From: Actinoallomurus purpureus
Lineage (GTDB): Bacteria > Actinomycetota > Actinomycetes > Streptosporangiales > Streptosporangiaceae
DNA: 64,000 nucleotides
Assembly: GCF_024055795.1 (NCBI RefSeq)
Contig: NZ_JAMXMY010000008.1
Coordinates: 186,001 to 250,000 of the forward strand
Direction of reading: 5' to 3'
Shown: in pieces, positions 30,995 through 51,494 of the stretch
Layout of the letters: the number at the start of each line of letters is the position of its first letter
Position numbering within the stretch: position 1 is the first letter of the stretch
Made by a program: the position numbers and the translations under genes
The notes under the pieces: generated by a model
Seen by the model: only the letters and a program-made list of their open reading frames with translations
The model's database searches: none
What the model was told of the DNA's origin: nothing

Positions 30995-31861
30995 TCAGGA
31001 AGCCGATCCGTGGTCGGCGGCGATCTGGTCGAGCAGGTCCGGGATCTGGGGATTCGCGGACACGTCGATCTTGCGGGCGAAGAACGCGTCGCTGTCCCGG
31101 AGCTCGTCCAGGTGGGCGGCGGTGATCACTTCCGGATGGCTCGCACCGGCGCCCCACCGGATGAAACGCCTGCTGTCGTTGGCGACGGAGCGGGCCGGGC
31201 GCGCGTTGAGGGCCATGGAGCAGACGAAGGTCTCATCGGGGATCGGCGCGTACCGCAGATAGCGCAGCAGGCGGTCGGCCAGCGGGTCGGCCAGCATGCC
31301 GTGGACGGTCGCGGCGGAGAGGTTGAACCACATGTCGCCGACGTACAGGCCCACGCCGTCCCGGTAGGGGTGCCTCCGCGCGAACGGCAACGGCACCGAT
31401 CGATGGGTGCCGGGCAGCCGCCGCTTGCGCACGTAGCGTCTGCGGGTGACCGCCTGCCAGGGATCGGTGTCCGCCCCCGGATCGGAGGTCACGGCGAAGT
31501 GCCGAAGATACGCGTCGTACGGCGAGGCGGCGAGTTCCTGCTCGATCGCGGTGATGGGCCGGATCGGATAGTCCTGGCCGGAGATCAGGAGGGCCCAGGA
31601 GAACTCGGGGATGTTGGCCGCCACCCAGCGCAGCGACCGCCACTGCGCCTCGACGAGGGAGAGCCGTCCCCACTGGCAGGGCCGGGCGTCGGGGATCAGG
31701 GCGACATCTGAGGCGGGGCGCAGCGTCAGCGGCTCGCCGCTCGGGTCGTGGTGCACGACCGCGACCGTGTCGGCTCCGGAGCGGATCCGGTTCACGAGGC
31801 GGGTGACCTGCCCGGGGTGCCGGTGCGACAGCACGATCACGACCAGCGGTCCGCCGCCCAT
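30995..31861 (-). CDS. Core-2/I-branching (GT14-like) glycosyltransferase
   Basis: A predicted glycosyltransferase of 288 aa related to the beta-1,6-N-acetylglucosaminyltransferase fold. It has an N-terminal LVVIVLSHRHPGQVTRLVNR, and the GT14-like core SWALLISGQDYPIRPI, followed by YVGDMWFNLS and PIPDETFVCSMAL (likely catalytic Glu). It has no membrane anchor. It opens the exopolysaccharide region but is transcribed away from the kinase/ALG14/ALG13 operon. I take ATG 31861; GTG codons upstream in frame are possible starts. The ribosome site is poor in either case. Confidence 0.75.
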   Translation of the reverse strand: MGGGPLVVIVLSHRHPGQVTRLVNRIRSGADTVAVVHHDPSGEPLTLRPASDVALIPDARPCQWGRLSLVEAQWRSLRWVAANIPEFSWALLISGQDYPIRPITAIEQELAASPYDAYLRHFAVTSDPGADTDPWQAVTRRRYVRKRRLPGTHRSVPLPFARRHPYRDGVGLYVGDMWFNLSAATVHGMLADPLADRLLRYLRYAPIPDETFVCSMALNARPARSVANDSRRFIRWGAGASHPEVITAAHLDELRDSDAFFARKIDVSANPQIPDLLDQIAADHGSAS

Positions 31862-32036
31862 GGTATCCCGCGCCCTTCGCCGTGAATTCCGCTGCCGTTC
31901 CGTGACAGAGGGTACTGCCGTTCCGGAAATGCAGTGACGCGTCCCTTGATGAAACACCGATTACGGTAAAGTGCCGAGAAAGTTGAGGTCGGCTACCGGG
32001 ACAGATCCGGGCTGATCAAGGGCACCAGGGGGCGCA

Positions 32037-33260
32037 GTGCTCCGCGCACTTGTCGAACGGCTGTGGCTGCCCGAGCCGGAGTCCTCCGGGTGGCCGGTCC
32101 GTGTCACGTCGGGCGACGTCCCGCCGGGTCATCGCGTGGTCGAGCGTTACGCCGTCGTCCCGTCACCGGAGCGGCCGCGTTTCCTCGTACCGCTCGACGG
32201 CCGGGCCGTGGCGGCCGGCAGCCTGACCCGCTACAACGGGCTCCGCTGGGCCCGCCTGCGCGTCCCCCGGACCGTGCTGGGCGCCGGTTTCCGTACCGGG
32301 ATCGCCCCGCTCCTGCTGCGGCACCGGCTGCTCGTGTGCGTGCCCGAGGATCTCCCGCCCGCCGAGCTCGGCGACTACCTGCTGAGCGCCCACCTGCGGG
32401 GGGTGCTCGGCCTGCCGCGACTGGCCCTGGGCGTCGGCGTCCGGCCGCCCGATCCCAACCTGAAGCCGACGCTCCAGCTCTTCGGCCCGGACGGCGCGCC
32501 GGTGGGGTACGCCAAGGTCGGCTGGAACCCCGCCACCCGGGAGATGACGCGCCGGGAGGCGGCCGCCATCGCCGCGGTCACCGAAGAGGCCGCGCCGGCG
32601 GCCGGCCGCATCCGCGTGCCGCGGTTGCTGCACCACGGCTCCTGGCGCGACTACGACCTCACCGTCACGGCGCCGCTGCCGCCGAAGATCCGCCGCTACC
32701 GCGAGACGGAGCGGCCGCCCGCCGTCTCATGCGACGACGGTCCCTTCGCCGCCCGGACGACGAAGCTGGCCGACACGGGCTTCTGGCGGGCGCTGCGGAC
32801 GGAGGCAGCCGTGCTGTCCGCCGACGACGAGGAACGACGGCTCGCGGCGCTGATCACCGCCCACTGCGACGAGCTCGAACGCGAGCACGGTGGCACTCCC
32901 CTGCGCGTCGGCCGGTGGCACGGCGACTGGGTGCCCTGGAACATGGGCCGGTACGCCGGTGACCTGTACGTCTGGGACTGGGAGCACAGCGCCGAGGAGA
33001 CCCCGGTCGGCTTCGACCTGCTGCACTGGAGGTTCCAGGACGCCCTCGTGCTGCGCGGTCGGCCGTTGACCGAGGCGGTCGCCGCCGTACGGGCCGCCGC
33101 CGACGACGAGCTCACCGCGCTTCCCCCCGACCACCGCCGGCTGCTCGGACGGCTCTACCTGCTGGAGATGTTCATGCGGACCTACCACCTCAAGCGGCTG
33201 GGCGGCGGCTGGAACCCCGCCCTCCATCCGGCCATGCTCGAGGTCCTGGAGGAGCGATGA
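32037..33260 (+). CDS. Aminoglycoside-phosphotransferase-like kinase in EPS operon
   Basis: A 407-aa cytoplasmic protein whose C-terminal half has the APH/choline-kinase catalytic pattern: RWHGDWVPWNMGR (HGDxxxxN catalytic loop) and LYVWDWEH (metal-binding Asp). The N-terminal lobe includes YAKVGWN (possible ATP-contacting Lys). The N-terminal ~100 residues are unassigned. The stop codon overlaps the ALG14-like start (ATGA), so it belongs to the three-gene glycan operon. It may phosphorylate a sugar or glycan rather than a drug, but the substrate is unknown. Confidence 0.65.
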   Translation: MLRALVERLWLPEPESSGWPVRVTSGDVPPGHRVVERYAVVPSPERPRFLVPLDGRAVAAGSLTRYNGLRWARLRVPRTVLGAGFRTGIAPLLLRHRLLVCVPEDLPPAELGDYLLSAHLRGVLGLPRLALGVGVRPPDPNLKPTLQLFGPDGAPVGYAKVGWNPATREMTRREAAAIAAVTEEAAPAAGRIRVPRLLHHGSWRDYDLTVTAPLPPKIRRYRETERPPAVSCDDGPFAARTTKLADTGFWRALRTEAAVLSADDEERRLAALITAHCDELEREHGGTPLRVGRWHGDWVPWNMGRYAGDLYVWDWEHSAEETPVGFDLLHWRFQDALVLRGRPLTEAVAAVRAAADDELTALPPDHRRLLGRLYLLEMFMRTYHLKRLGGGWNPALHPAMLEVLEER

Positions 33261-33706
33261 GAGTCCTCCTGGTCTGCTCGACCGGCGGCCACCTGACCCA
33301 GCTCTACCGGCTGCGGCCCTGGTGGTCCGAGCACGAGCGGATGTGGGTGACGTTCGAGAAGGCCGACGCCAGTTCCCTCCTCGCGGACGAGCAGGTGACC
33401 TGGGCCTATCATCCGACGACGCGGAACGTCCCCAACCTGCTGCGCAACCTGTGGCTCGCCCTCCGGCTGGTCCCGCGCTACCGGCCCGACGTGATCGTGA
33501 GCTCCGGGGCGGGCGTCGCCGTGCCCTTCTTCGTCCTGGGCCGGCTGCTGCGCAGGCGCACCGTCTACCTCGAGGTGTACGACCGCATCGACTCCGGCAC
33601 GCTCACCGGCCGTCTCTGCTACCCGATCGCCGACCTGTTCCTGCTGCAGTGGGAGGAGCAGCGGGCACGTTATCCGAAGGGGACCGTCGTGGGGCAGCTG
33701 CTGTGA
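33257..33706 (+). CDS. ALG14-like glycosyltransferase membrane subunit (EPS)
   Basis: The 149-aa partner that tethers an ALG13-type catalytic subunit to the membrane. It matches the PssD/Cps14F group: N-terminal LLVCSTGGHLTQLYRL, central YRPDVIVSSGAGVAVPFFVLGRLLRRR, and YLEVYDRIDSGTLTGR near the C-terminus. It overlaps its neighbours by 4 bp on each side (ATGA and GTGA). With the next gene it would add the second sugar to a lipid-linked glycan, as in pneumococcal capsule assembly. Confidence 0.88.
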   Translation: MRVLLVCSTGGHLTQLYRLRPWWSEHERMWVTFEKADASSLLADEQVTWAYHPTTRNVPNLLRNLWLALRLVPRYRPDVIVSSGAGVAVPFFVLGRLLRRRTVYLEVYDRIDSGTLTGRLCYPIADLFLLQWEEQRARYPKGTVVGQLL

Positions 33707-34242
33707 CCGGCTGGGACAAGCCGCTGGTCTTCGTGACCGTGGGCACCGACCATCACCGGTTCGACCGGTTGATGGGCTGGATGGAGCAGTGGCTCTCCGC
33801 CAACGGCCACGCCCGCTGCGTGGTGCAGCACGGCCCGGCCGACCCTCCGGCGGGCGCCGAGTGCCACGCGTTCCTGCCTCACGCCGACGTGCAGGCGCTG
33901 TTCCGGGAGGCGACCGTCGTCGTCTGTCAGGGCGGCCCCGGCTCGATCACGGAGAGCCGGCAGGCGGGCAGGCTGCCGGTCGTCGTGCCTCGGATCGCGC
34001 GGCTGGACGAGGTCGTCGACGACCACCAGGTGCGGTTCTCCCGGCATGTGGCGGCCTTCGGCAAGGTGGCCCTGGCCGAGACCGCCGAGAGCCTGCACGC
34101 CCACCTGGACCGCGCCCTGGCCGACCCCGACGAGTACGCCGTGCAGGATGAGGCCGACGAGACCGCGCCCGCCGTCGCGCGGTTCGGCCGGCTGGTGGAC
34201 GAGCTCGTCGCCACACCCCGGCGCCGCCGACGGCGGACTTAG
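33703..34242 (+). CDS. ALG13-like glycosyltransferase catalytic subunit (EPS)
   Basis: A 179-aa GT28 C-terminal-domain protein that binds the nucleotide sugar. The family core is VFVTVGTDHHRFDRLM, then FLPHADVQALFREATVVVCQGGPGSITE (sugar-nucleotide binding) and GRLPVVVPRIARLDEVVDDHQ. GTG 33703 overlaps the ALG14-like stop codon. The gene ends at the edge of the dispersed hairpin repeat, which probably terminates the operon. Confidence 0.88.
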   Translation: MTGWDKPLVFVTVGTDHHRFDRLMGWMEQWLSANGHARCVVQHGPADPPAGAECHAFLPHADVQALFREATVVVCQGGPGSITESRQAGRLPVVVPRIARLDEVVDDHQVRFSRHVAAFGKVALAETAESLHAHLDRALADPDEYAVQDEADETAPAVARFGRLVDELVATPRRRRRRT

Positions 34243-34295
34243 AGCCCACGCGAAATGGACTGCCGGGCTCACGGCGCCCATTCCGCGCGGGCTCT
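34241..34295. repeat. Dispersed ~54-bp hairpin repeat, copy A
   Basis: A 55-bp imperfect palindrome: AGAGCCCACGCGAAATGGAC pairs with its complement at the other end over 20 bp with three transition-type differences. The end is CGCCCATTCCGC-GCGGGCTCT. A homologous copy lies at 52371-52424. It overlaps the stop codon of the ALG13-like gene and could act as that operon's terminator. Confidence 0.75.
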
Positions 34296-34296
34296 C

Positions 34297-34525
34297 AGGG
34301 CCTGTCTCAAAGTCCCCGTCCGTAGCGAGCGGTGTCCAGGTGGTGCCTCGTAAGGCGGAGGAGGGAGTCAGCCTGGTGTTGGCTGGCGACTCCTCCCGGG
34401 GCCCCCGCGGAAACGCGCCGGGTCGGCGAAGCCGTCCCTCGCGTCTTCGTGGGGTGGGGCGACAACGCGGCGAGGCGCCGCCTGGGCGCCGCGCAGTAGG
34501 ACAGTGGGGCTTTGAGACAGGCCCT
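34297..34525. mobile_element. MITE-like palindromic element, 229 bp, no transposase
   Basis: Perfect 16-bp terminal inverted repeats, AGGGCCTGTCTCAAAG at 34297-34312 and its complement at 34510-34525, bound the element. Inner arm segments 34330-34350 and 34471-34491 are also complementary, differing only by transitions, and at matching distances (33 and 34 bp) from the ends. The centre has a further GGAGTC/GACTCC hairpin. There is no plausible gene inside. No clear target duplication is visible. This looks like a non-autonomous transposable element adjacent to hairpin repeat A. Confidence 0.7.
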
Positions 34526-35627
34526 AGCCGCCGGACGGGTTGAGGTAGGAGTCCCGGCCCGCCGCGGCGTACGAGGTGAGCATGCCCGGGCCGTTGTCGA
34601 CCTTGAGGTTGCAGCCCGGTCCCGCGTCGAAGCGGATCAGCCCGGCGATGTTGGGGTACTTGCTCCGCAGCACGCCGGGGATCTCTCGGTACCACTGAAG
34701 GGAGCGCTTCGGGTCGGCCGGGTCGTACTGCGTGCCGTACTCCGGGAGGATGAACGGCTTCTTGGCGAACCCGTTCTTTTGCAGGAAGCGGTACGTCTGC
34801 CCGACCTTCTCGTCGAACGAGTGCCACTGCGTACCGTGGCACTTGTAGAAGTTGTACGGGTCCCAGCCCACCCAGTCGACGTACGCGTCGCCGGGATAGG
34901 AGTTGAGCATTCGCTGCGGGTTCTCGTTGCTCATCGTCCCGGTGGTGGTCCAGACCCAGACGACGTTCGTGGCGCCGGCCTTCGCGAAGACGTCGTGGAC
35001 GTGCCGGGCGGCGGCGACGTACTCCGCCTCGGTGCCCTTGAGCTCGCCCTTGGTGATGTGCCGGTCCATCTCCGGGTCGAAGGACATGAAGACCTTCTGC
35101 CCGTAGGCGCGGATCCGGCGGGCGACGGGCTGGATGACGGACCGGTCGTAGGCGCCCGCGGCGATGTCACGCCACTTGTAGCTCTGTTGCCCCGCGTAGA
35201 GCTTGCTCTCCCAGGCGAAGAACAGCAGCCGGGAACGGCCGAGCGCGCGCTCGGCGGCGTCCGGGAAGACGCCCGGACCCGGCTTGTTCGAGAAGTCATG
35301 GAAGCGCAGGACGATGTCGAAACGCCGGCCGACCTTGCCTTCGATGTCGGTGACGGCCGAGGTGAGCGACGCGCCCTGCACGGAGTAGATGCCCCAGTAG
35401 GCGCCGCACTTCGGCATCAGCTTGGCGTCGGCCCCGCAGCGCCCCCTCGCGTCCCGGGACCTGCCCATCGTGAGGGTGGCGGATCCCTTGCCGGACCCCT
35501 TACCGGATCCGCCGCCGGAACCGTCGTTGCCCGACGCGGAGCCGCAGGCCGACAGGACGGTGCCCGCTCCGATCAGCGTCACCGCCGACAGCGCGGCGAC
35601 GCGCCCGCGTCCTCTGGCGATCCTCAT
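34524..35627 (-). CDS. GH26-like glycoside hydrolase lipoprotein
   Basis: A predicted extracellular lipoprotein of 367 aa. The signal ends in the lipobox GTVLSACGS, followed by a Gly/Ser/Lys linker (GSGGGSGKGSGKGS). The domain resembles glycosyl hydrolase family 26/mannanase-type TIM barrels: FDIVLRFHDFSNKPG, KVFMSFDPEMDRH (possible acid/base context) and KKPFILPEYGTQYD (likely nucleophile Glu). It may trim or process the exopolysaccharide. Its last codons lie within the MITE terminal repeat (34524-34525), so the stop and final residues could derive from that insertion. ATG 35627 is the start. Confidence 0.65.
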   Translation of the reverse strand: MRIARGRGRVAALSAVTLIGAGTVLSACGSASGNDGSGGGSGKGSGKGSATLTMGRSRDARGRCGADAKLMPKCGAYWGIYSVQGASLTSAVTDIEGKVGRRFDIVLRFHDFSNKPGPGVFPDAAERALGRSRLLFFAWESKLYAGQQSYKWRDIAAGAYDRSVIQPVARRIRAYGQKVFMSFDPEMDRHITKGELKGTEAEYVAAARHVHDVFAKAGATNVVWVWTTTGTMSNENPQRMLNSYPGDAYVDWVGWDPYNFYKCHGTQWHSFDEKVGQTYRFLQKNGFAKKPFILPEYGTQYDPADPKRSLQWYREIPGVLRSKYPNIAGLIRFDAGPGCNLKVDNGPGMLTSYAAAGRDSYLNPSGG

Positions 35628-35738: not shown

Positions 35739-37799
35739 TCAGGGGCAGAATCGGCCGAACCCGCCGAGCCACTGGTAGGCGGAGCCGGTCCAGGAGCCGC
35801 TCTTCAGGTCACCGCCGGCCCACATGCACCCATTGTTGTCCTTCACGAGCGCCCAGACGCCGTTTCCGGCCCGCGACGCGAAGACGGGGTTCCAGTTGGG
35901 CAGGTACTTGCCGCTCTGGGCGTTCCAGGCGCCGACCATGTTGAGGCGGTGCACGTTGGAGTAGCCGCCAGTCTTCGGGTCCGGATACGTCCAGCCGTCG
36001 GTGTAGTCGAAGTCGAAGCCGTGCGACCCGGCGTACAGGACACCGTTGATCTCGACGGACGTCTGGAAGTCACCGCCCGAGCGGGCGAGGTTCCCACTGA
36101 TCTTGTTCTGGAAGTCCCGGTCGTAGACCTGCAGGTCGTGCTCTGACCCGCCCATCCAGACGCGGTCCCCGACCTCGAGGATCGTGTTGCGGTAGGGCTT
36201 CTCCGGGTCGGAGGTGCTGGGGATCCACTTCGTGTCGCCGAGCCCGGAGATATGGCCGCCGGGCGCCGCCGCGCTGACGATGGCGAAGTCGTTGACCGAC
36301 GTCTCCTTCTGCTTGCCCATGTGCTTCATGCGGCCGCCGAAGTAGACGCGGTCCCCCTTCGAGCTGGCGTCGAGCGAGTACACACCCGCGTCGAAGAACG
36401 GGTTCCAGGTGGTGTCCGGGGTGCCGTCCGTCACCTTGACACGCGCCGCGCCGCCGACCCAGAACGGCGACTTGGCGATGGTCGTGCCGCCCTTGACGTG
36501 GTCGAACGTGCCGCCGACGTAGAGCCAGCCGTCCTGGATGTCCATGGCCCGACCGCGCGGCGCTCCGCCGCTCCGGATCAGGCTGGCCTTCCAGGTGGAC
36601 ACCGGCGCACCGGTCTTGAGGTCGAGGGCGGCGACGCCCGCGGTGTTGGCGACGCCGTTCACGTTGGTGAAGTCGCCGGAGACGAACACCTTGTCGCCGG
36701 AACCCTTGATCGCCCAGACCTCACCGTCGAGCTTGGGCCGGAACCCGGACTTCCACTCGCCGGTGGCGGTGTCGAACGCCGCGAGGTAGGACTGCTCGAC
36801 CTTCTGGCCGGCCGCCGGGCTGGCGCCCTTCTGCACGTACTGGAACTTGCCCCCGACGTACAGGGTGCTGCCGACGACGCCGAGGGCGTGCACCTCGATG
36901 TTGTTCTCGCCGGTGCCGCCGCCGACGACACCCGTGACGCCCCAGGAGCTGGACGAGGTCTTGCCGCTGAGCAGCTTCGGCGTGGCCGGGGCCGCTCCGC
37001 CCTCCGCGGTCGTGATCTTGGGCCGCACCCAGACCTGTGTGAACGGGATGGGCAGGCCGTCGGAGGTGGCCTTGTACAGGTAGCTGCTCGCGCTGGTCGA
37101 CGCCCCGCGGACGTTGGGGCCGTACGCGAAGCCCTTCTTGTACGCGTTGTTCTTGTCCTTGACGGTGGACAGGTAGTTGTACGGGTGCAGCATGCTGTCG
37201 TACGCCGTGATGGTGTCGGTGTACCCGCCGCTGTAGGCCGCGCCGTCGAAGGAGACCGAGGTCAGCGGGAGCCCGCCGTCGAAGGTCCAGGACCAGTCCG
37301 CCAGGTCCTTGTACTTCAGCTGCACGTCCTGCCAGGCGGTGCCGCCGGTGTTCTCGGCGCGCCGCAGCCGGACCCCGTCGATGGAGCCGCCGTTGAACAG
37401 GCCGTTGATGGTGTCGCCGGGGACCGTGGCGGGCGCGAAGGCGGCGGTGCCGGTGGGCGTGTTGCGCACGTTCGACGTGCTGCTCTGGCCGGCGTAGTGG
37501 TAGTTCCAGCTCTCGCGGCCGCGGCCGACGAGGACCCAGCCTCCGCCGTCGGTGGTCATGTCGCAGTAGAACTGCTGGGCGCTGCCCATTCGGGGCGTCT
37601 TCAGCCAGTACAGGCCGGTCGCGCTCTTCGGGTAGGACTGCTTGATCGCCCAGCAGGACAGGGCGGCGGCGCTCGAGGACTTGCCGTCCGGCGGGCCCGC
37701 GCTGGCCCAGTCGGGAACGATCGCCACGCCGGCGGCCGCGACGAGGGCGGCGGCGCCGGCGAACAGGGACGCCTTGCGCGCAGGCAGACGAAATGCCAT
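35739..37799 (-). CDS. Secreted fibrinogen-like YCDxxxxGGGW domain / beta-propeller protein
   Basis: A predicted exported protein of 686 aa. The signal peptide (LFAGAAALVAAAGVAIVPDWASA) is followed by a fibrinogen-related domain with YCDMTTDGGGWVLVGRGRESW. The rest is a propeller-like region of repeated VGGKF, VSGDFTNVNG, VGGTFDHVKG, FGGRMKHMG and AGGDLKSG strands, each about 45-60 residues apart. Both parts suggest carbohydrate or surface binding. ATG 37799 has GGGAGA 5 nt upstream. A clear vegetative-type promoter lies about 90 bp upstream and a strong hairpin follows the gene, so it is probably monocistronic. Confidence 0.8.
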   Translation of the reverse strand: MAFRLPARKASLFAGAAALVAAAGVAIVPDWASAGPPDGKSSSAAALSCWAIKQSYPKSATGLYWLKTPRMGSAQQFYCDMTTDGGGWVLVGRGRESWNYHYAGQSSTSNVRNTPTGTAAFAPATVPGDTINGLFNGGSIDGVRLRRAENTGGTAWQDVQLKYKDLADWSWTFDGGLPLTSVSFDGAAYSGGYTDTITAYDSMLHPYNYLSTVKDKNNAYKKGFAYGPNVRGASTSASSYLYKATSDGLPIPFTQVWVRPKITTAEGGAAPATPKLLSGKTSSSSWGVTGVVGGGTGENNIEVHALGVVGSTLYVGGKFQYVQKGASPAAGQKVEQSYLAAFDTATGEWKSGFRPKLDGEVWAIKGSGDKVFVSGDFTNVNGVANTAGVAALDLKTGAPVSTWKASLIRSGGAPRGRAMDIQDGWLYVGGTFDHVKGGTTIAKSPFWVGGAARVKVTDGTPDTTWNPFFDAGVYSLDASSKGDRVYFGGRMKHMGKQKETSVNDFAIVSAAAPGGHISGLGDTKWIPSTSDPEKPYRNTILEVGDRVWMGGSEHDLQVYDRDFQNKISGNLARSGGDFQTSVEINGVLYAGSHGFDFDYTDGWTYPDPKTGGYSNVHRLNMVGAWNAQSGKYLPNWNPVFASRAGNGVWALVKDNNGCMWAGGDLKSGSWTGSAYQWLGGFGRFCP

Positions 37800-37888
37800 G
37801 GAATCTCCCGCGGTGTATGCGGCGAGCAGAAGGGCTCGGGGGATAACTAATCTGCAGCACAGAGGGGAGCTGGCGCAGGAACGTGGCA

Positions 37889-37917
37889 AAATTAGTGCAA
37901 GACGCACCCGCTGTCAA
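37889..37917 (-). promoter_or_regulatory. Vegetative-type promoter of the fibrinogen-like/propeller gene
   Basis: On the minus strand TTGACA (37917-37912) and TAATTT (37894-37889) are separated by exactly 17 bp. The surrounding 37880-37960 stretch is strongly AT-rich for this genome and contains inverted AATTA/TAATT motifs, possibly regulator sites. The predicted leader is about 80 nt. Confidence 0.7.
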
Positions 37918-42078: not shown

Positions 42079-42290
42079 GAGGCTGAAGGCGGCCACGAGA
42101 CGATCAGACCCGCCGGCCGGGAGGCGCGATCGGCGGAACCTGATTGATCACCGGAACCGCCCCTTCGTACCCGTTCGCCACCGACAGCTCCCTAGACTGC
42201 TTCTCCCGCCGCCACGCCGGCAGGAGTTTACCGGGGACGGCCCCGGGCCTTACCTTCTCAGAGACTCAGTGGGGAGATCCGGGGATCAGC

Positions 42291-43468: not shown

Positions 43469-45409
43469 ATGGACGCCACGGCCACGGGGGGCTCACGAGA
43501 GCTCGCGGATTATCTGGCAATGCTCAAACGCCGCTGGTGGGTGGTCGTCGCCGCGGCGGCGCTCGGCGTCGCGCTGGCGGCGTTGCTCGTCGTGGTCATG
43601 CCCAAGACGTACTCCGCGTTCACGGTCGTGAACGTCACGGCCACGAAGCTGGACAGCAGCACCCAGTCCGGCAAGCAGCAGGACATCAACCTGCAGACCG
43701 AGGCGCAGCGCGTCCGCTCGTACGACGTGGCCGAGCGGGTGGCCAGGGACCTGCACACCAAGGACACCCCCACCGCGCTGAGCGCGTCGGTGTCGGTGAA
43801 CGTCCCGAACGACTCGACCGTCATCTACATCACCGTGGACGCGTCGAACGCCGAGGCCTCCCGCAGCCGTGCGCACGCCTTCGCCCAGGCCTACCTCGAC
43901 GACCGCCGCGACAGCGCCACCAGCGTCCTGATGACCCAGATGGCGGCCCTGGAACGGCAGATCAACTCGCTGTCGAAGCAACTGCGGACGATGACCGACA
44001 AGGTGCAGAAGAACCTGGTCGTCGCCCAGATGCAGGCCCTGAACAACAAGACCTCCGACCTGCGGGTGCTCGCGGCCAACGTCAGCCCCGGTGAGATCAT
44101 CACCGACGCGCGGCTGCCCACGTCGCCGTCCGACCCCAGCCTGATGAGGTACCTGCCGAGCGGGCTCGTCGGCGGCCTGCTGCTCGGCGTGGTCCTGGCC
44201 ATCCTCCTGGACCGCACGGACAAGCGGGTGCGCACCGCCCAAGACATCGAGCGGGTCCTCGACCTGCCGGTCCTCGTGGACATTCCGGCCAAGCGCGGGC
44301 GAGAGGGGCTGGGCCTGCTACCGGCCCGCAGCCGCACCGGTCAGAGCTTCCACGAGCTGTCCCACGTCCTCACCGCCACGCTGGGCCACGGCAACCACGT
44401 CCTCCTGGTCACCGGTGCCGCACCGGGCCGCGGCGGCAGTCTCGTCGCCGCCAACCTCGCCGCGGCGCTCGCCCGTACCGGCTCCGACGTGCTCCTGGTC
44501 TGCGCGGACCTGGGTTCCTCGATGGCCGGTGAGCTCCTCGGCCTCCCGGAGGGGCCGGGGCTGTCGGAGGTGCTGCTCGGCTGGGCCGAGCCGCGCGAGG
44601 TGATCCGCAAGAACCACGGAGCGCCGACGCTGAGCGCCATCACGGTCGGTGCGAACAGCGAGCTGGCCGCCGAACTGCTGCAGCGCGAGCAGATGACCCG
44701 GCTGATCGGCTCGCTGCGTGAGAAGTACCGGTTCACGGTCATCGAGGCCCCGTCCACCGAGCTGGGCGCGGACGCCCAGGCGCTCGCGGACCTGGCCGAC
44801 GCGGCGCTCATGGTGGTCGAGATCCCCCTCGCGCGCTACGCCCAGGTCCGTGACGGTATCCGCCGCATCGACCGGATGGGCGCCGCCGTGATGGGCGCGG
44901 TCGTGCTGCCCATCCAGGACGACAAGGTGCCGGCGGCGCCGCCCCGGCCCTCGCTTCCGGCGCGGACGGCGCCCCCGCTGCGCGAGCGCCCGGCCGGTCC
45001 CCCGGAGACACCGAACAAGTACAAGGCCATCGAGGACGCTCCGACCGTCCTCGACATGGTTGCCGTGTCCGACGAGGACGGCCCTCCCCGGAAGGGCCGG
45101 CGCCACCGTCCCGAACCGATCCCGCCCGCGTCCGGCGAGGACTCCGTCCGGACCTCCGAATCCCTCCTGCCGGACGCCCCGGCCCTGTCCCAACGGCAAG
45201 GCCGGGCCCCTGGACAGGGTCACCCCGGACAGAGCCGGTCCGCCGGTCAGCCCCGGTCCGCCGAAGCGGCACGGCCCGCGGAGACGGCCCAGCACACCGA
45301 GACCGCCCGCCGTACCGACGCCGCCCTGCCTGCCGACGCGGCGCGGAAGGCACCGGCCGACAACAGCGCGGACGAGACCGCCGCACACCCCAACGTCACC
45401 TGGACCTGA
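43469..45409 (+). CDS. Wzz/BY-kinase-like EPS chain-length protein with degenerate P-loop
   Basis: A 646-aa protein with the Wzz-type N-terminal arrangement: LADYLAMLKRRWWVVV with TM1 (about 25-45), an extracytoplasmic coiled region (MAALERQINSLSKQLRTMTD), and TM2 (about 229-249). The cytoplasmic domain resembles bacterial tyrosine kinases. However, Walker A reads TGAAPGRGGSLVAANL (Lys replaced by Gly), Walker A' reads VCADLGSS, and the Walker B region is VIEAPST. There is no C-terminal tyrosine cluster; the ~190-residue tail is Pro/Ala/Arg-rich. It is probably a structural co-polymerase, not an active kinase. The ATG at 43469 starts the conserved region. Confidence 0.8.
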   Translation: MDATATGGSRELADYLAMLKRRWWVVVAAAALGVALAALLVVVMPKTYSAFTVVNVTATKLDSSTQSGKQQDINLQTEAQRVRSYDVAERVARDLHTKDTPTALSASVSVNVPNDSTVIYITVDASNAEASRSRAHAFAQAYLDDRRDSATSVLMTQMAALERQINSLSKQLRTMTDKVQKNLVVAQMQALNNKTSDLRVLAANVSPGEIITDARLPTSPSDPSLMRYLPSGLVGGLLLGVVLAILLDRTDKRVRTAQDIERVLDLPVLVDIPAKRGREGLGLLPARSRTGQSFHELSHVLTATLGHGNHVLLVTGAAPGRGGSLVAANLAAALARTGSDVLLVCADLGSSMAGELLGLPEGPGLSEVLLGWAEPREVIRKNHGAPTLSAITVGANSELAAELLQREQMTRLIGSLREKYRFTVIEAPSTELGADAQALADLADAALMVVEIPLARYAQVRDGIRRIDRMGAAVMGAVVLPIQDDKVPAAPPRPSLPARTAPPLRERPAGPPETPNKYKAIEDAPTVLDMVAVSDEDGPPRKGRRHRPEPIPPASGEDSVRTSESLLPDAPALSQRQGRAPGQGHPGQSRSAGQPRSAEAARPAETAQHTETARRTDAALPADAARKAPADNSADETAAHPNVTWT

Positions 45410-45456: not shown

Positions 45457-46353
45457 TCAGATGCCCCGGCCGCGGGCGTGCAGCGTCAGCAGGACCCGCT
45501 TGCCCGAGACCACGCCGGAGGCCACCGCGAGCGCGAACGGCACCCGCCGCTCCTTCCAGTTGGCCCGCATCGCCCGTCCCGCCCAGCGAACGGCCTCCCG
45601 GCGCTCGCCGACGGTGGCGTAGCCGAAGGCGATCTGGCCGTACACGCGCCCGGCGGCGGCCGGGGACCGGCCGATCTCCGGATACCGCTCGAGGAACCAC
45701 CGCAGCGCCTCGACCTTCGTCTCCCAGGCCTGCGCGTAGTAGGAGGTCTGGCCGAACAGCACCCGGACGTACGGGTGGTCGACGTTGACGATCGGATGCC
45801 GCCGGGCGGCGCGCAGCGCAAGGTCCCAGTCCTCGCCCTGACCGCCGGGGATGGTCTCGTCGACCATGCCGATGTCGATCAGCGCCTCGCGCCGCGCCAC
45901 GTACGTCGAGGAGTGGACGCTCACGACGCGGTCGCCGACGAGGTCGTCGAAGCGGACCCGGTCGGTGCCGGCCAGCCGGGGAACCTCCCGGCCGTTGAAG
46001 TCGATGAGGATGCCGCAGCTGGCGAGGACCGCGTCGGGTTCGGCCCGCAGCGCGGCGACCTGGGCCGCCAGCTTGCCGGGCAGCCAGATGTCGTCGTCGT
46101 CGCAGGAGGCCACGAGGTCGGTGTCGAGCGCGAGGATGCCGGTGTTGCGGCTGCCGGGGAGCCCGGGCGTGCGGGTGCCGGCCAGCACCTCGACCCGGTC
46201 GCCCGCCAGGCTCCGGTCGGGCTCGGCCCGGTCGTACACCACGACGACGCGGAGCCGTCCGTCGTACTCCTGGGCCAGCACCGACTCGAGCGCTCTGCGC
46301 AGCAGCTTCGGGCGGTTGTGAGTGGGGATGACCACTCCGACGGAGGGCAGCAC
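45457..46353 (-). CDS. Family 2 glycosyltransferase
   Basis: A 298-aa inverting glycosyltransferase with a GT-A fold: SVGVVIPTHNRPKLLRRALES at the start, LPGSRNTGILALDTDLVASCDDDDIW (nucleotide-sugar and metal-binding DxD region), and GGQGEDWDLALRAAR (catalytic ED motif). It has no membrane segment. It is convergent with the chain-length gene and divergent from the flavin oxidoreductase gene. GTG 46353 is the likely start, although the ribosome site is poor. It presumably adds a sugar to the EPS repeat unit. Confidence 0.82.
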   Translation of the reverse strand: MLPSVGVVIPTHNRPKLLRRALESVLAQEYDGRLRVVVVYDRAEPDRSLAGDRVEVLAGTRTPGLPGSRNTGILALDTDLVASCDDDDIWLPGKLAAQVAALRAEPDAVLASCGILIDFNGREVPRLAGTDRVRFDDLVGDRVVSVHSSTYVARREALIDIGMVDETIPGGQGEDWDLALRAARRHPIVNVDHPYVRVLFGQTSYYAQAWETKVEALRWFLERYPEIGRSPAAAGRVYGQIAFGYATVGERREAVRWAGRAMRANWKERRVPFALAVASGVVSGKRVLLTLHARGRGI

Positions 46354-46405
46354 CCGGCACAGTTTAGGCTGCTGCCGGAAACGATGGTCGGGAAAGGTGG
46401 TTGGT

Positions 46406-46870
46406 GTGGCTCCGAGAATCGCGACCGCCGATCGGGTGGCCCGTGACGAGTTGCTGGAGTTCCTGCGGCCCCGGCACCACGGGTTGCTCGCCACCGTACG
46501 GTCGAGCGGCCGCCCCCAGCTGTCGCCCGTGACGTGCGGCGTGGACGCCGAGGGCCGGATCGTGATCTCCACGTATCCCGAGCGGGCCAAGGCCCGTAAC
46601 CTGCGCAGGGAAGAACGGGTGTCGATCTGCGTGCTGTCCGACGACTGGGACGGCCCGTACGTCCAGGTCGACGGGCGCGCCGAGGTGCTCGACATGCCCG
46701 AGGCGCTGGAGGGGCTGGTGGACTACTACCGCTGCATCGCCGGTGAGCATCCCGACTGGGACGAGTACCGCGAGGCGATGCGGCGGCAGGACAAGTCGCT
46801 CATCCGCGTCCACATCGAGGAGTGGGGGCCGATCGCGACCGGCGGATTCCCGCCGGGGCACCAGGCCTGA
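46406..46870 (+). CDS. PPOX-class (F420-dependent-like) oxidoreductase
   Basis: A 154-aa split-barrel flavin/F420-binding protein. The family pattern is HHGLLATVRSSGRPQLSPVTCGVDAEGRIVIST, then RAKARNLRREERVSICVL and YVQVDGRAEVLD. Actinomycetes have many F420-dependent members of this type, and the substrate cannot be predicted. GTG 46406 follows AAAGGTGG. It sits between the EPS and sulfate-activation genes, and I see no reason to assign it to either pathway. Confidence 0.8.
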   Translation: MAPRIATADRVARDELLEFLRPRHHGLLATVRSSGRPQLSPVTCGVDAEGRIVISTYPERAKARNLRREERVSICVLSDDWDGPYVQVDGRAEVLDMPEALEGLVDYYRCIAGEHPDWDEYREAMRRQDKSLIRVHIEEWGPIATGGFPPGHQA

Positions 46871-46875
46871 GCGTA

Positions 46876-46905: not shown

Positions 46906-46912
46906 CATGCTT

Positions 46913-48181
46913 CTAGCGGTTCTCCATGATCATGCCGGCGGCGACGGTGGAGTTCGTGGCCTCGTCGATGAGGATGAACCCGCCGGTGGCACGGTTGCGC
47001 GCGTAGTCGTCGGCGAACAGCGGCTGGGTGACGCGCAGGCTGACGCGCCCGATCTCGTTGAGCTCCAGGCGCTCGGCGTCCTCGTGCCGGTGCAGCGTGT
47101 TGACGTCGAGCCGGTAGTGCAGCTCCTTGATCATCGCCTTGGCCGTGCGCGTGGTGTGCTTGATGACCAGCTTGCCGCGCGGCACGAGCGGGCGCTCGTC
47201 GGACATCCAGCAGACCATCGCGTCGACGTCCTGGGTGACCTGTGGCCGGTTGTGCGGCCGGCAGATCATGTCGCCGCGCGAGATGTCGATGTCGTCCTCC
47301 AGCAGGAGCGTCACCGACATCGGCGGGAACGCCTCGTCCGCCGGGCCTTCGGCGGTGTCGATGCGCTTGATCCGCGTCGTCAGCCCGGACGGCAGGTGCA
47401 TGACCTCGTCGCCCGGCTTCAGCACGCCGCCCGCGACCTGTCCGGCGTAGCCCCGGTAGTCGTGCAGCTCCGGGTCGGTGGACTTGTGCGGCCGGATGAC
47501 GTACTGCACCGGGAACCGCACGTCGATGAGGTTCCGGTCGGAGGCGATGTGGACGTTCTCCAGATGGTGCAGCAGCGACGGGCCGTCGTACCACGCCATG
47601 TTGGCCGACCGCTCGACGACGTTGTCGCCGTGCAGGGCCGAGAGCGGGATGAAGGTGAGGTCGCCGACGGACAGCTTGGCGGCGAACGAGGTGAACTCGT
47701 CCTTGATCCGTTCGAACGTGGCCTCGTCATAGTCGACGAGGTCCATCTTGTTGACCGCCAGCACGAGGTGCGGCACCCGCAGCAGCGTCGTGAGGAACGC
47801 GTGCCGGCGCGACTGCTCCAGGATGCCCTTGCGCGCGTCGATCAGGACGATCGCCAGGTCCGCGGTGGAGGCTCCGGTCACCATGTTCCGGGTGTACTGG
47901 ATGTGCCCGGGAGTGTCGGCGATGATGAACTTCCGCCGGGGCGTGGCGAAGTAGCGGTAGGCCACGTCGATCGTGATGCCCTGCTCGCGCTCGGCGCGCA
48001 GGCCGTCGGTCAGCAGGGCGAGGTTGGTGTAGTCCTCGCCCCGGTCGCGGCTGGTGCGCTCGACGGCCTCGAGCTGGTCCTCGAAGATCGACTTGGAGTC
48101 GAACAACAGGCGTCCGATGAGGGTGGACTTGCCGTCGTCGACCGAACCGGCGGTGGCGAGCCGCAGGATGTCCATGCTCAT
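46913..48181 (-). CDS. cysN: Sulfate adenylyltransferase large subunit (GTPase) CysN
   Basis: With CysD it makes APS from sulfate and ATP, driven by GTP hydrolysis. The EF-Tu-like G domain is complete: AGSVDDGKSTLIGRLL (P-loop), REQGITIDVAYRYF (switch I), ADTPGHIQYTRNM (switch II) and VNKMDLVD (NKxD). Beta-barrel domains II and III follow. At 422 aa it lacks the fused APS kinase domain found in mycobacterial CysNC, so APS kinase must come from elsewhere, probably the gene at 24212. ATG 48181 is the start; a second in-frame ATG is at 48175. Confidence 0.95.
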   Translation of the reverse strand: MSMDILRLATAGSVDDGKSTLIGRLLFDSKSIFEDQLEAVERTSRDRGEDYTNLALLTDGLRAEREQGITIDVAYRYFATPRRKFIIADTPGHIQYTRNMVTGASTADLAIVLIDARKGILEQSRRHAFLTTLLRVPHLVLAVNKMDLVDYDEATFERIKDEFTSFAAKLSVGDLTFIPLSALHGDNVVERSANMAWYDGPSLLHHLENVHIASDRNLIDVRFPVQYVIRPHKSTDPELHDYRGYAGQVAGGVLKPGDEVMHLPSGLTTRIKRIDTAEGPADEAFPPMSVTLLLEDDIDISRGDMICRPHNRPQVTQDVDAMVCWMSDERPLVPRGKLVIKHTTRTAKAMIKELHYRLDVNTLHRHEDAERLELNEIGRVSLRVTQPLFADDYARNRATGGFILIDEATNSTVAAGMIMENR

Positions 48182-48272
48182 GAGTCGCTCACCACTCCTC
48201 GTTCCCTCCGCGTCCGGCCTGCTGCGCGGCGCCGGGCACTCCGCTCACTGCGGCGGGTTCCCTCCGGGCTCA

Positions 48273-49202
48273 TCAGAAGTACCCCTCCCGCTTGCGATCC
48301 TCCATGGCGGCCTCACTGGTGCGGTCGTCGGCGCGGGTCTGGCCGCGCTCGGTGACCCGCGTGGCCGCGATCTCGGTGATGACATCGCCCAGCGTGACCG
48401 CCGTCGACTCGACGGCGCCCGTGCAGCTCATGTCGCCGACCGTGCGGTAGCGGACCATCGCCTCGAAGGCCGGCTCGTCGTCACCCCGGTTGGAGTACGG
48501 GCTGTCGGCGAGCAGCATGCCGTCGCGTTCGAAGACCGTGCGGGTGTGCGCGAAGTAGATGGTGGGGATCTCCAGGCCTTCGGTCTGGAGGTAGTCCCAG
48601 ATGTCGAGCTCGGTCCAGTTCGACAGCGGGAAGACCCGGATGTGCTCACCCTGCCGGAGCCGGGTGTTGTAGAGGTTCCACAGCTCCGGCCGCTGGTTCT
48701 TGGGGTCCCACTGGCCGAAGTCGTCGCGGAAGGAGAAGACGCGCTCCTTCGCGCGGGCCTTCTCCTCGTCGCGACGGGCCCCGCCGAACGCCGCATCGAA
48801 GCGGTGCTCCTCGATGGCGTCCAGCAACGTGGTGGTCTGCAGGCGGTTCCGGCTGGCCCGCCGGCCGGTCTCCTCGACCACACGTCCGTTGTCGATGGAC
48901 TCCTGGACGGAGGCGACCACCAGGCGGACGCCGAGCTCGGCGACGCGCCGGTCGCGGAACTCGATGACCTCCGCGAAGTTGTGCCCCGTGTCGACGTGCA
49001 TGACGGGGAAGGGGATCGGCGCCGGCCAGAAGGCCTTCTCGGCGAGGCGCAGCATGACGATGCTGTCCTTGCCGCCGGAGAAGAGCAGGACGGGCCGTTC
49101 GAACTCGGCCGCGACCTCCCGGATGATGTGGATCGATTCGGATTCCAGGACGTCCAGCTGGGACGTCCGGTAATCACGGGTGTCAGCGGTAGTGCGCTGC
49201 AT
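48273..49202 (-). CDS. cysD: Sulfate adenylyltransferase small subunit CysD
   Basis: The catalytic subunit of heteromeric ATP sulfurylase, 309 aa, of the PP-loop (PAPS reductase-like) family. It shows LLFSGGKDSIVMLRLAEKAF (PP-loop), FPVMHVDTGHNFAEVIEFRD, AFGGARRDEEKARAKERVFSF, and WTELDIWDYLQTEGLEIPTIYFAH. ATG 49202 has GGGAGCGG upstream and is 22 nt from the cysQ stop codon. cysQ, cysD and cysN run in that order on one strand, although a 91-nt gap separates cysD from cysN. Confidence 0.96.
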   Translation of the reverse strand: MQRTTADTRDYRTSQLDVLESESIHIIREVAAEFERPVLLFSGGKDSIVMLRLAEKAFWPAPIPFPVMHVDTGHNFAEVIEFRDRRVAELGVRLVVASVQESIDNGRVVEETGRRASRNRLQTTTLLDAIEEHRFDAAFGGARRDEEKARAKERVFSFRDDFGQWDPKNQRPELWNLYNTRLRQGEHIRVFPLSNWTELDIWDYLQTEGLEIPTIYFAHTRTVFERDGMLLADSPYSNRGDDEPAFEAMVRYRTVGDMSCTGAVESTAVTLGDVITEIAATRVTERGQTRADDRTSEAAMEDRKREGYF

Positions 49203-49224
49203 GTGAAGCCGCTCCCGGGTTCGC

Positions 49225-49995
49225 TTACGAGACCGCCCGGATACCGGCGAGCAGCGTCGGCGCCAGATCCGGGTGGCAGACCAGGATATCCGGGAGAAGG
49301 GTGTCCTCATTGTTGTAGGTCAGCGGTGTCCCGTCGATACGGGACGCGTGGGCGCCCGCGGCGAGGGCGACGGCCACCGGCGCGGCGGAGTCCCATTCGT
49401 ACTGGCCGCCCGCGTGGACGTACGCGTCGACGTCGCCCAGGATCACCGCGGCGACCTTCGCACCGGCCGATCCGATCGGGACGAGCCGGACGTTCGCGTC
49501 GAGGTCGTCGACGAGCCGATCGAGGAACGCCGGTGGGCGGCTGCGGCTCGCGGTGACGCGGATGTGCGACGGATCATGTAGCGGGCGCAGCGACGGCGGC
49601 TCCGCGGTGGAGAGGGTCCGCCCCTGGGCGGGCAGGGCGACGGCGCCGGCGCTGAGCCGCCTGGTGCCGTCCGCGGTCCGCTCCCAGAGGGCGACGTGGA
49701 CGGCCCAGTCGGCCCGCCCCTCCTCGCCGTACTCGCGGGTGCCGTCGAGCGGGTCGACGATCCACAGGCGGTCCGCGTCGAGGCGGGCGAGGTCGTCCTT
49801 GCCCTCCTCGCTGAGAACCGCGTCGCCGGGACGCTGCCGGGCGAGCGCCTCGGTCAGGTACAGGTGCGCCTCGCGGTCACCGGTGTCCCGCAGTGTGCGG
49901 ATGTCGGCGAAGCCGGATTCGGCGCGCAGGCGGAGGAGGAGCGCTCCCGCCTCGGTGGCCAGATCCCGGGCGAGTGCGTGGTCGTCGTGGGTCAC
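49225..49995 (-). CDS. cysQ: 3'(2'),5'-bisphosphate nucleotidase CysQ
   Basis: It dephosphorylates PAP to AMP, removing the toxic by-product of PAPS use by sulfotransferases or PAPS reductase. The 256-aa protein belongs to the inositol-monophosphatase-like family: VLSEEGKDD (metal Glu), LWIVDPLDGTREYGE (metal-binding DPxDGT) and GGQYEWDSAAPVAVALAAG (second WDxA motif) are intact. GTG 49995 is the likely start. It heads the cysQ-cysD-cysN run inside the EPS region. Confidence 0.92.
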   Translation of the reverse strand: MTHDDHALARDLATEAGALLLRLRAESGFADIRTLRDTGDREAHLYLTEALARQRPGDAVLSEEGKDDLARLDADRLWIVDPLDGTREYGEEGRADWAVHVALWERTADGTRRLSAGAVALPAQGRTLSTAEPPSLRPLHDPSHIRVTASRSRPPAFLDRLVDDLDANVRLVPIGSAGAKVAAVILGDVDAYVHAGGQYEWDSAAPVAVALAAGAHASRIDGTPLTYNNEDTLLPDILVCHPDLAPTLLAGIRAVS

Positions 49996-50012
49996 GTACT
50001 TCTCTCTACACG

Positions 50013-51494
50013 TCAGTAGGCGCCGGAGCCGTGGAGCACGGCGGCCCAGGTCTTCCACAGGATCTGCAAGTCGAGGGTCAAGGACCAGTTCTCGACGTAA
50101 CGCAGATCGAGGCGTACGGATTCCTCCCAGGTCAGATCGGCCCGGCCGCTCACCTGCCACAGGCCGGTCATGCCCGGCCGTACGACGAGGCGGCGGCGCA
50201 CGTCGTCACCGTACTGCGCGACCTCTTCGGGGAGCGGCGGGCGAGGGCCGACCAGCGACATGTCGCCCCACACCACGTTGAACAGCTGAGGCAGCTCGTC
50301 GAGGGAGTACCGGCGCAGCCAGGCACCGATCCGGGTGACCCGCGGATCATTCTTGATCTTGAAAAGGACGCCGTCGTGGTCGTTGAACCTCAGCAGCTCG
50401 GCCTTGCGCCGCTCGGCGTCGACGACCATCGTGCGGAACTTCAGCACCGTGAACTCGCGGCCGTCGCGGCCGACCCGGACCTGACGGAACAGCGCCGGGC
50501 CATGGCTCTCCAGCCGGATGGCGATCGCGATGGCGGCCAGCAGCGGCCACAGGACGATCAGTGCCGCGACGCCGACGGTGCGGTCGAACGCACTCTTGAT
50601 GAGCCTGCGGACGCCGGTCAGCTCCGGGTGTTCGACGTGCAGGAGCGGCAGCCCGGCGACGGGACGGATGGAGGTGCGCGGGCCGGCGACCTCCATGAGC
50701 GCGGGGGCGACGACGAGGTCGACGTCGTCCTTCTCCAGTTGCCAGGCCAGGCGGCGCAGGGCCACGCCGTCCAGCTCGGGACAGGCGAGGACGGCGACGG
50801 TGTCGGCGTGCACCGCCTCGACGGTGCCGGCGATCCCGGCGAAGTCACCGGCGACTCGTACGCCCTCGATCTCGCGGACCGCGTCGTCTCCGGAGGCGAG
50901 CATCGGCGGGACGCAGGCGGCGACGATCTCCATGCCGTGGTGGGTCTCGCGGCGCAGCTGCCGCACCAGGTCGGCCACTGCCGCCCGGTGACCGGCCGCC
51001 ACGACGCGGCGCATGCACGCGCCGGCCTTCCGCCGGTGGTGCAGCCTCTTGCGCAGCTGGTAGCGCCCGGCCAGCCCGAGCGTCGTCGTGAGGGGCAGCG
51101 CCGCGACGACGTATCCGCGGGCGACGTCCACCTTGGTGGCGTACGCGGCGATCGCCACGGTGGCGGTCAGCGAGAACCCGGCCTGGATGACGCGGCGGAA
51201 CTCCTCCGAGCCGACGCCGAAGAGCCGCTGCTCGTACGCGCGCGCCATGCCGAGCACGCCGGTCCACACGAACGGGAGGCAGAGGCTGAGGCCGATGTAG
51301 GGAGTGCTCCACGGGTCCCCGAACGAGGGGTAACGGAACCGCGCGACGAAGGCGACCAGACCCGCGAGCAGCGCGACGAGGAAATCGACGCAGAAGGCCT
51401 GACGGGCATAACCGGAGGCCCATGCCTCGGCCTGCGAACGGCTGCTGCTGTGGGCGGCCTGGGCTTCGGGCCACGCCTTTCCGACGACCGCCAT
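50013..51494 (-). CDS. Polyprenyl glycosylphosphotransferase (EPS-initiating sugar transferase)
   Basis: A WbaP/CpsE-type membrane enzyme of 493 aa that loads the first sugar-1-phosphate onto undecaprenyl phosphate. About four or five N-terminal helices are followed by a cytoplasmic nucleotide-binding-like domain. The C-terminal bacterial sugar-transferase domain holds RQVRVGRDGREFTVLKFRTM, RRYSLDELPQLFNVVWGDMSLVGPRP and RPGMTGLWQVSGR. ATG 51494 has GAGGGG upstream. Its stop codon lies 17 nt before the cysQ start, so sulfate activation may be transcribed together with EPS initiation. Confidence 0.92.
   Translation of the reverse strand: MAVVGKAWPEAQAAHSSSRSQAEAWASGYARQAFCVDFLVALLAGLVAFVARFRYPSFGDPWSTPYIGLSLCLPFVWTGVLGMARAYEQRLFGVGSEEFRRVIQAGFSLTATVAIAAYATKVDVARGYVVAALPLTTTLGLAGRYQLRKRLHHRRKAGACMRRVVAAGHRAAVADLVRQLRRETHHGMEIVAACVPPMLASGDDAVREIEGVRVAGDFAGIAGTVEAVHADTVAVLACPELDGVALRRLAWQLEKDDVDLVVAPALMEVAGPRTSIRPVAGLPLLHVEHPELTGVRRLIKSAFDRTVGVAALIVLWPLLAAIAIAIRLESHGPALFRQVRVGRDGREFTVLKFRTMVVDAERRKAELLRFNDHDGVLFKIKNDPRVTRIGAWLRRYSLDELPQLFNVVWGDMSLVGPRPPLPEEVAQYGDDVRRRLVVRPGMTGLWQVSGRADLTWEESVRLDLRYVENWSLTLDLQILWKTWAAVLHGSGAY

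Follow-up and report, generated by a model that had tools for sequence, protein, structure and literature searches.

A predicted sulfated exopolysaccharide locus in Actinoallomurus purpureus, set among sulfate-activation genes at a conserved place in Streptosporangiaceae

The stretch of DNA analysed here, called the window below, comprises 64,000 nucleotides (nt) of Actinoallomurus purpureus, a soil actinomycete of the Streptosporangiaceae (contig NZ_JAMXMY010000008.1, 186,001-250,000), and all coordinates are positions within it. The genome to which it belongs, G000 in our samples, is 9.25 Mb in size. The region 30995-51674 is a Wzx/Wzy-type exopolysaccharide (EPS) locus, in which the initiating polyprenyl-phosphate glycosylphosphotransferase (PGT), Wzx, Wzy and Wzz are all present. 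The locus also encodes a heparan-sulfate-type sulfotransferase (ST) and the sulfate-activation genes cysQ, cysD and cysN, and a further sulfate-activation gene, satK, lies about 5 kb beyond its GT14 gene. The features, from pth downwards, are as follows.

51760-52350, minus strand: pth
50013-51674, minus strand: PGT (Bac_transf 2.9e-69 and CoA_binding_3; EPS_sugtrans, TIGR03025, over cut-off)
49225-49995, minus strand: cysQ, like phosphatases of 3'-phosphoadenosine 5'-phosphate (PAP) (Inositol_P 7e-30, over cut-off; TIGR01331 8e-23, below equivalog cut-off)
48273-49202, minus strand: cysD, ATP sulfurylase small subunit (TIGR02039, 457.9 bits, cut-off 396.6)
46913-48181, minus strand: cysN, ATP sulfurylase large subunit (TIGR02034, 574.8 bits, cut-off 336.1)
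45457-46695, minus strand: GT2 glycosyltransferase (Glycos_transf_2 3.7e-18)
43481-45409, plus strand: Wzz chain-length protein whose C-terminal part resembles ParA/tyrosine kinases (Wzz 3.5e-9, over cut-off; CbiA/AAA_31 below cut-off)
42144-43364, plus strand: exported propeller-like protein with a C-terminal transmembrane segment (maximal open reading frame, ORF; NHL label given by eye; no Pfam match over cut-off)
40645-42096, minus strand: Wzy polymerase-like protein (Wzy_C/O-antigen ligase PF04932, 30.7 bits against a cut-off of 31.7, one bit under)
38927-40648, minus strand: Wzx flippase (Polysacc_synt PF01943 2.6e-7, over cut-off)
38023-38925, minus strand: ST, heparan-sulfate-type sulfotransferase using 3'-phosphoadenosine 5'-phosphosulfate (PAPS) by prediction (PF13469 and PF00685 over cut-off)
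35739-37907, minus strand: exported fibrinogen-like (GGGWT) protein (NF040941 over cut-off)
34524-35627, minus strand: GH26-like lipoprotein (Glyco_hydro_26, 24.5 bits, over cut-off, partial)
33703-34242, plus strand: PssE/ALG13-like glycosyltransferase subunit (Glyco_tran_28_C; NF041548 and NF046028 below cut-off)
33257-33706, plus strand: PssD/ALG14-like glycosyltransferase subunit (Alg14; NF041549 over cut-off)
32037-33260, plus strand: WpsI-like protein (resembling the aminoglycoside phosphotransferase fold; HGD..P.N...DWE read by eye; no Pfam match)
30995-31957, minus strand: GT14-type branching glycosyltransferase (Branch domain, PF02485 3.4e-13)
25873-26868, plus strand: TauE/SafE-type transporter (PF01925 5e-41), beside SatK in many relatives
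24152-25768, plus strand: SatK, a degenerate ATP-sulfurylase half joined to a kinase of adenosine 5'-phosphosulfate (APS) (APS_kinase 5e-57)

Down the minus strand from pth the order is therefore PGT, cysQ, cysD, cysN and GT2, followed on the plus strand by Wzz and the propeller-like protein. Further on come wzy, wzx, ST and the fibrinogen-like and GH26-like genes (minus), WpsI-like, PssD and PssE (plus) and GT14 (minus), and beyond GT14 lie TauE, SatK, a methyltransferase and mfd. The PGT coordinates are those of the maximal ORF, and the real start probably lies further in. The preliminary description of this DNA, made from the sequence alone, had listed an EPS region with an initiating transferase, ALG14/ALG13, GT14 and GT2 transferases, a flippase, a polymerase and a chain-length protein, and profile matches recovered all of them; the chain-length gene needs one correction, as it lies, with its neighbour at 42144-43364, on the plus strand, opposite to wzy-wzx-ST. 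The WpsI-like gene at 32037-33260 was absent from that description. The same description had proposed that the sulfotransferase gene is co-transcribed with those of the flippase and polymerase. The overlap of 4 nt between wzy and wzx and the gap of one base between wzx and ST fit such co-transcription, judged from gene positions.

The sulfotransferase had been called heparan-type, and this assignment holds for both its fold and its PAPS-binding blocks, which are those of the 3-OST/NDST type. A profile of 38 sequences matched 3rnl (3.8e-44), 3-OST-3 (2.3e-34) and NDST (4.3e-28). When superposed, the AlphaFold2 model of ST (pLDDT 92.5) gives Z 26.9 against both 3rnl and 3-OST-3, with a root mean square deviation of 1.9 over 227-228 residues; against NDST1 the values are Z 26.0 and 2.4 over 239 residues, while the next sulfotransferase families listed reach a Z of 14.5 at most. 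R146, P148, V149, R151, S154 and Glu117 are invariant in the 38 aligned homologs, and Glu117 is aligned with the Glu of EKTPSY in 3-OST-3. There are strong grounds for taking PAPS as the sulfate donor of ST.

The genes that would supply this donor are in place. As described previously, cysQ, cysD and cysN follow PGT at a distance of 17 nt, the cysQ start at 49995 standing 17 nt past the PGT stop; the CysQ-specific models stay below their cut-offs, and the Inositol_P family is over its own. CysN over cut-off occurs once in the genome, as the window copy. A second cysDN was sought in the genome and no further CysN over cut-off was found, the next best match scoring 110 bits and the lower matches being other GTPases. 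The APS kinase reported at 24 kb is present and is the sole APS kinase match in the genome, but it proves to be the C-terminal half of a two-domain protein. The sulfurylase half of SatK reads ATRTPLHRRH where 2gks has QTRNPMHRVH, and GRDH is absent. QxRN and GRDH, which we take to be ATP sulfurylase motifs and which are both visible in the aligned 2gks, occur in none of 46 SatK-homologous ORFs (the window included, some loci overlapping), of which 26 have at least 500 amino acids and 45 carry the P-loop. On this loss of motifs we reject SatK as a second ATP sulfurylase, its sulfurylase half being probably dead. The closest solved structure is 3cr8, a two-domain Thiobacillus enzyme whose reference title states the absence of ATP sulfurylase activity. 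All this argues strongly that CysDN makes APS and that SatK makes PAPS but not APS. As the only ATP sulfurylase found, CysDN must feed cysteine synthesis too. The preliminary description had spoken of a full set for sulfate activation and transfer within one glycan locus; the genes of that set are indeed there, with the APS kinase standing beyond GT14.

The use to which PAPS is put can be approached through CysH. PAPS_reduct matches elsewhere in the genome comprise a weak one on C5 and that of CysH, whose gene on C13 has a sulfite/nitrite-reductase-like neighbour. CysH has the CC and CxxC cluster ligands of APS reductases, as has its best match among solved structures, 7lhr, and both are absent from the aligned PAPS reductase 7rge. 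A reference title in PMC1266029 presents an iron-sulfur cluster as the mark by which users of APS differ from users of PAPS. Given this cysteine pattern in CysH, assimilation can probably proceed without PAPS, and the PAPS is probably made for sulfotransferases.

To place the locus in its family, 200 genomes of Streptosporangiaceae, G000 among them, were searched with CysN, PGT and ST, which matched in 194, 176 and 167 genomes, respectively. Distances between CysN and ST were counted in 150 of the 194 genomes with CysN (G000 included), with one CysN match each and ST matches down to about 4e-42; 19 of the 200 genomes have two or three CysN matches, and the one used there is perhaps not the relevant copy. 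Among the matches listed, ST lies no more than 60 kb from CysN in 93 of the 150 (G000 again included). It is downstream of cysN in all 93 and on the opposite strand in 88, the five on the same strand being those of the window, two congeners, G098 and G075. Of the remaining 57, again among the matches listed, 19 have ST only elsewhere, some of these (e.g. G148, G017, G068) with CysN close to the beginning of a contig, and 38 have no ST match; when 20 of the 38 were fetched, ST appeared in G051, in G056 and, at a contig end, in G195. The presence of PGT and that of ST are associated across the 200 genomes (both 160, PGT only 16, ST only 7, neither 17, the table being filled by elimination from lists of positives), with an odds ratio of 24 and p of 1e-10, uncorrected for kinship. 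Leaving out the 22 genomes under 90 percent complete gives 146, 12, 5 and 15. One congener, G176 (87 percent complete), has a match to none of the three queries.

Sixty stretches of up to 20 kb were then read for gene content by tblastn, 40 picked for ST near cysN and 20 for no visible ST match. The order pth-cysQ-cysD-cysN was found in all 60. PGT stands between pth and cysQ in 51 (38/40 and 13/20 in the two sets), and ST is within the stretch in 39/40 and 3/20; the one missing from the first set, G135, has its ST just past the stretch end. In 23 of the 60, wzx-ST-wpsI-wzy-wzz forms one block facing cysN, and many related loci have a homolog of the WpsI-like protein between ST and wzy. Where the stretch is long enough, GH26-like, TauE, SatK, methyltransferase or mfd come next. 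At the other extreme is G016 (L155; three CysN matches), with a compact rplY-pth-cysQDN-TauE-SatK-methyltransferase-mfd and no EPS markers between. Since cysQDN is present in every fetched locus and the EPS genes vary, the sulfate genes are a constant frame and the EPS genes a variable filling. Moreover, since cysQDN is kept at this place in some relatives that lack ST or EPS genes, it cannot serve EPS alone.

The filling itself comes in two forms. A tree of 80 sequences splits with support of 100/99 into a window side and a usual side, the latter with 37 of the 41 sampled cysN-linked STs and with four STs of Micromonosporaceae. By cysN, window-side STs are found in the window, two congeners, G098, G075 and Actinomadura darangshiensis, and the cysN-linked ST of Actinomadura barringtoniae belongs to a more distant subclade of this side. 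In that species (L288, L289) one contig carries two cysDN, one in a pth-PGT-cysQDN-ST block and the other about 217 kb away. Six genomes (G095, G044, G004, G133, G070, G062) carry a window-type ST elsewhere and a different ST, 34-39 percent identical, by cysN. Four congeners (G052, G115, G135, G152) have at the cysN locus an ST of 42-43 percent identity on the opposite strand, and the only one of these in the tree, that of G052 (L117), falls on the usual side. Phylogeny and synteny together suggest that the cassette has been exchanged within the genus at a fixed place. ST adjoining wzx recurs in both clades. The exported fibrinogen-like (35739-37907) and propeller-like (42144-43364) proteins accompany the window-type cassette in several genera.

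Three further sulfotransferase genes are present in G000. One on C6 (L023 7662-8585, PF13469) lies among genes that by eye look like nucleotide-sugar and glycan genes, and its surroundings may possibly be a second sulfated glycan cluster. One on C1 (L021 8490-9449, PF13469/PF00685) is 28-34 percent identical to both ST clades. A usual-clade ST elsewhere in G000 was looked for and not found: the percentages of the C1 gene are those just given, and at 1e-3 neither the C3 nor the C6 gene was matched. Outside the phylum, relatives of ST occur in metagenome-assembled genomes (MAGs) of Chloroflexota (L239, L247).

Linkage of the same kind was also seen outside the family. PGT-cysQDN lies near ST in Kineosporia, Arthrobacter Soil763 and Actinocatenispora, and on one MAG contig cysN and cysQ are near ST. 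Arthrobacter Soil763 has an additional, divergent CysN with CysD elsewhere. In a class-wide sample, ST at E 1e-45 or better was found in 46 of 246 genomes; 24 of these are outside the family, and 23 of the 24 have a CysN match. A general actinomycete rule of cysQDN-ST linkage was considered and rejected, with 1 of 23 genomes linked outside the family; the coupling is frequent in the family and sporadic elsewhere.

We propose a series of connected steps for the locus, and consider it likely that the EPS made by this Wzx/Wzy system receives O- or N-linked sulfate in the cytoplasm from the heparan-sulfate-type ST. CysDN would produce APS, which the APS kinase half of SatK would convert to PAPS; ST would then sulfate the lipid-linked repeat unit, its presumed acceptor, and CysQ would remove PAP. 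The sulfated polymer would be exported and polymerised by Wzx, Wzy and Wzz. The locus would represent one form of a family-wide place behind pth, bordered by cysQDN and, at its far end, by TauE-SatK (and mfd), inside which an EPS cassette and its ST could be exchanged together. The enzyme activities, the acceptor, the order of steps and the sulfation of the secreted polymer are predicted from genes, and a surface or spore-matrix role is suggested by analogy with Actinoplanes; we regard sulfated capsules or spore matrices as probable products of these bacteria. The sulfated EPS put forward in the preliminary description is thus supported by comparative evidence.

Several observations weigh against this proposal. 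The NCBIfam model for phosphoadenylyl-sulfate reductase (NF002537) is over cut-off for CysH and the APS-reductase model TIGR02055 is under, and the three other sulfotransferases of G000 could use PAPS. The cysQDN genes behind pth are constant whatever lies beyond them, and G016, G049, G086 and G111 have cysQDN and SatK at this place while their whole genomes give no match to PGT or to ST. PGT without an ST match occurs in 16 of the 200 genomes. Seventeen ORFs from two ST-free loci (7 from G131, 10 from G048) gave EPS genes and no sulfotransferase in Pfam, and another sulfotransferase family concealed in such loci was not found among these ORFs. Outside the family, ST is linked to CysN in only one of the 23 genomes with a CysN match (G242, about 12 kb), a count limited by draft contigs. 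Finally, in Actinoplanes missouriensis a mutant in wpsB, the second sulfotransferase gene of the wps-1 cluster, is reported to have normal-looking sporangia, though fewer spores (PMC13390465).

The foremost rival explanation assigns cysQDN and SatK to housekeeping sulfate metabolism: inherited order would keep them at a fixed place, where they border EPS genes by chance, and sulfation of the EPS by ST would be neither required nor precluded. The finding of cysQDN behind pth in every fetched locus, EPS genes present or not, raised our estimate of this explanation and lowered that of the proposed sulfated EPS. CysN is present in 194 of 200 genomes and single in G000, the arrangement of G016 does without EPS markers, and linkage is rare beyond the family. 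However, CysQ and an APS kinase are dispensable for an APS-reductase pathway, 51 of the 60 loci carry PGT between pth and cysQ, the EPS-linked cysQDN of Arthrobacter is additional to another cysDN, and in Actinomadura barringtoniae the contig with the pth-PGT-cysQDN-ST block bears another cysDN as well. A purely housekeeping origin of the neighbourhood therefore appears unlikely, although it deserves to be taken seriously. The preliminary description had named two things that would jointly speak against a sulfated EPS, a second cysDN cluster and relatives with cysQDN here but no sulfotransferase. Only the second of the two was observed: no second CysN over cut-off was found in this genome, but such relatives do exist, and among them G016, G049, G086, G103, G111, G131, G174 and G183 have cysQDN at this place and no ST match in the genome. 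These relatives show that cysQDN is not tied to EPS alone.

It is rather improbable that ST acts on a target other than EPS, such as a lipid, a wall glycan or a small molecule. The acceptor is not readable from sequence, and with three other sulfotransferase genes in G000, PAPS may have several uses. Nevertheless, ST is one base from wzx, which overlaps wzy, the ST-wzx adjacency recurs in both clades, the fold is closest to the glycan-modifying 3-OST and NDST, and the wpsH mutant of Actinoplanes missouriensis is like the wzx, wzy and wzz mutants (PMC13390465). That ST or the locus is inactive or silent is very improbable, for although this place holds the window cassette less often than the other form, ST is intact, 90-91 percent identical in two congeners, and confidently modelled.

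Sulfation of an EPS by ST, our preferred reading, has parallels in several known systems. Synechan is a cyanobacterial sulfated EPS. SatK shares the layout of the two-domain APS kinase 3cr8, which we take to be from Thiobacillus denitrificans, and differs from it in the motifs lost. In the marine Proteobacteria, the capsule cluster of Cobetia marina KMM 1449 contains a sulfotransferase together with cysD, cysN(C) and cysQ (PMC11766843), and that of Vibrio sp. KMM 8419 contains a sulfotransferase with cysND, its cysNDC being second copies (PMC11641403); in both, structure analysis is reported to have shown a sulfated polymer. These are ABC-transporter (Kps) capsules, whereas the window encodes a Wzx/Wzy system and carries the only CysDN of its genome.

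The closest system is wps-1 of Actinoplanes missouriensis, described in June 2026 as comprising GT2, WpsB (the second sulfotransferase), GT26, DUF4262, GH26, methyltransferase, Wzx, WpsH, WpsI, Wzy and Wzz, and adjoined by AMIS_7390 of the Sat/APS kinase family (PMC13390465). Its authors predict a sulfated EPS and also name synechan of Synechocystis (PMC13390465). Mutants in wpsH, which encodes a heparan-sulfate-type sulfotransferase, and in AMIS_7390 are reported to have abnormal sporangia and to release fewer spores, an outcome that the authors called unexpected for AMIS_7390, and the resemblance of the wpsH mutant to those in wzx, wzy and wzz comes from the same account (PMC13390465). That paper makes no mention of cysD or cysN (PMC13390465). 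Common to wps-1 and the window are a heparan-sulfate-type ST, Wzx, Wzy, Wzz, WpsI, GH26, GT2 and a nearby Sat/APS-kinase protein. In contrast, WpsB and GT26 are found in wps-1, and the window has the shared genes in an order other than wzx-ST-wpsI-wzy-wzz with SatK, its Wzz and WpsI-like genes being on the plus strand. Its ST lies across the 100/99 split from the WpsH clade, WpsH being represented by the four Micromonosporaceae STs L281, L292, L293 and L296. SatK-Wzz-Wzy-WpsI-ST-Wzx with GH26-like genes was found in Paractinoplanes, Spirilliplanes and Nucisporomicrobium genomes; in Couchioplanes the stretch ends after SatK-Wzz-Wzy-WpsI and in Actinoplanes RD1 after Wzz, and no such block was found around the SatK of Micromonospora lupini. 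These Micromonosporaceae clusters fit both wps-1, compared by its description, and the usual block of the family. Beyond the wps-1 paper, none of the literature matches listed describes this locus by title or abstract opening.

The prediction of a sulfated actinomycete polysaccharide made for a single species is hereby extended to much of a family, with a likely donor pathway named (CysDN, the two-domain APS kinase and CysQ) and many named strains made available for testing glycosaminoglycan-like sulfation in bacteria. Should the prediction be true, these loci would also offer glycan sulfotransferases akin to the enzymes with which heparin is made. A more far-reaching possibility, which we offer tentatively and do not favour, is that the fixed pth-mfd place of Streptosporangiaceae is a capsule-type locus with a permanent sulfate-activation frame, within which species exchange whole EPS cassettes that bring their own ST clade, giving a family of bacterial heparinoid-like polymers in spore or sporangium matrices through a PssD/E-type glucuronosyl step and a 3-OST/NDST-type ST. 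The glucuronic acid step is uncertain, PssD being over cut-off and the WelK model below it, as is the polymer's likeness to heparin. Were this the case, the AMIS_7390 phenotype would be PAPS starvation of WpsH. Sulfated EPS in actinomycetes has already been predicted for wps-1 (PMC13390465); new here are the frame of cysQDN and APS kinase, the exchange of cassettes within it, and a possible reason for the hitherto unexplained sporangium defect of the AMIS_7390 mutant.

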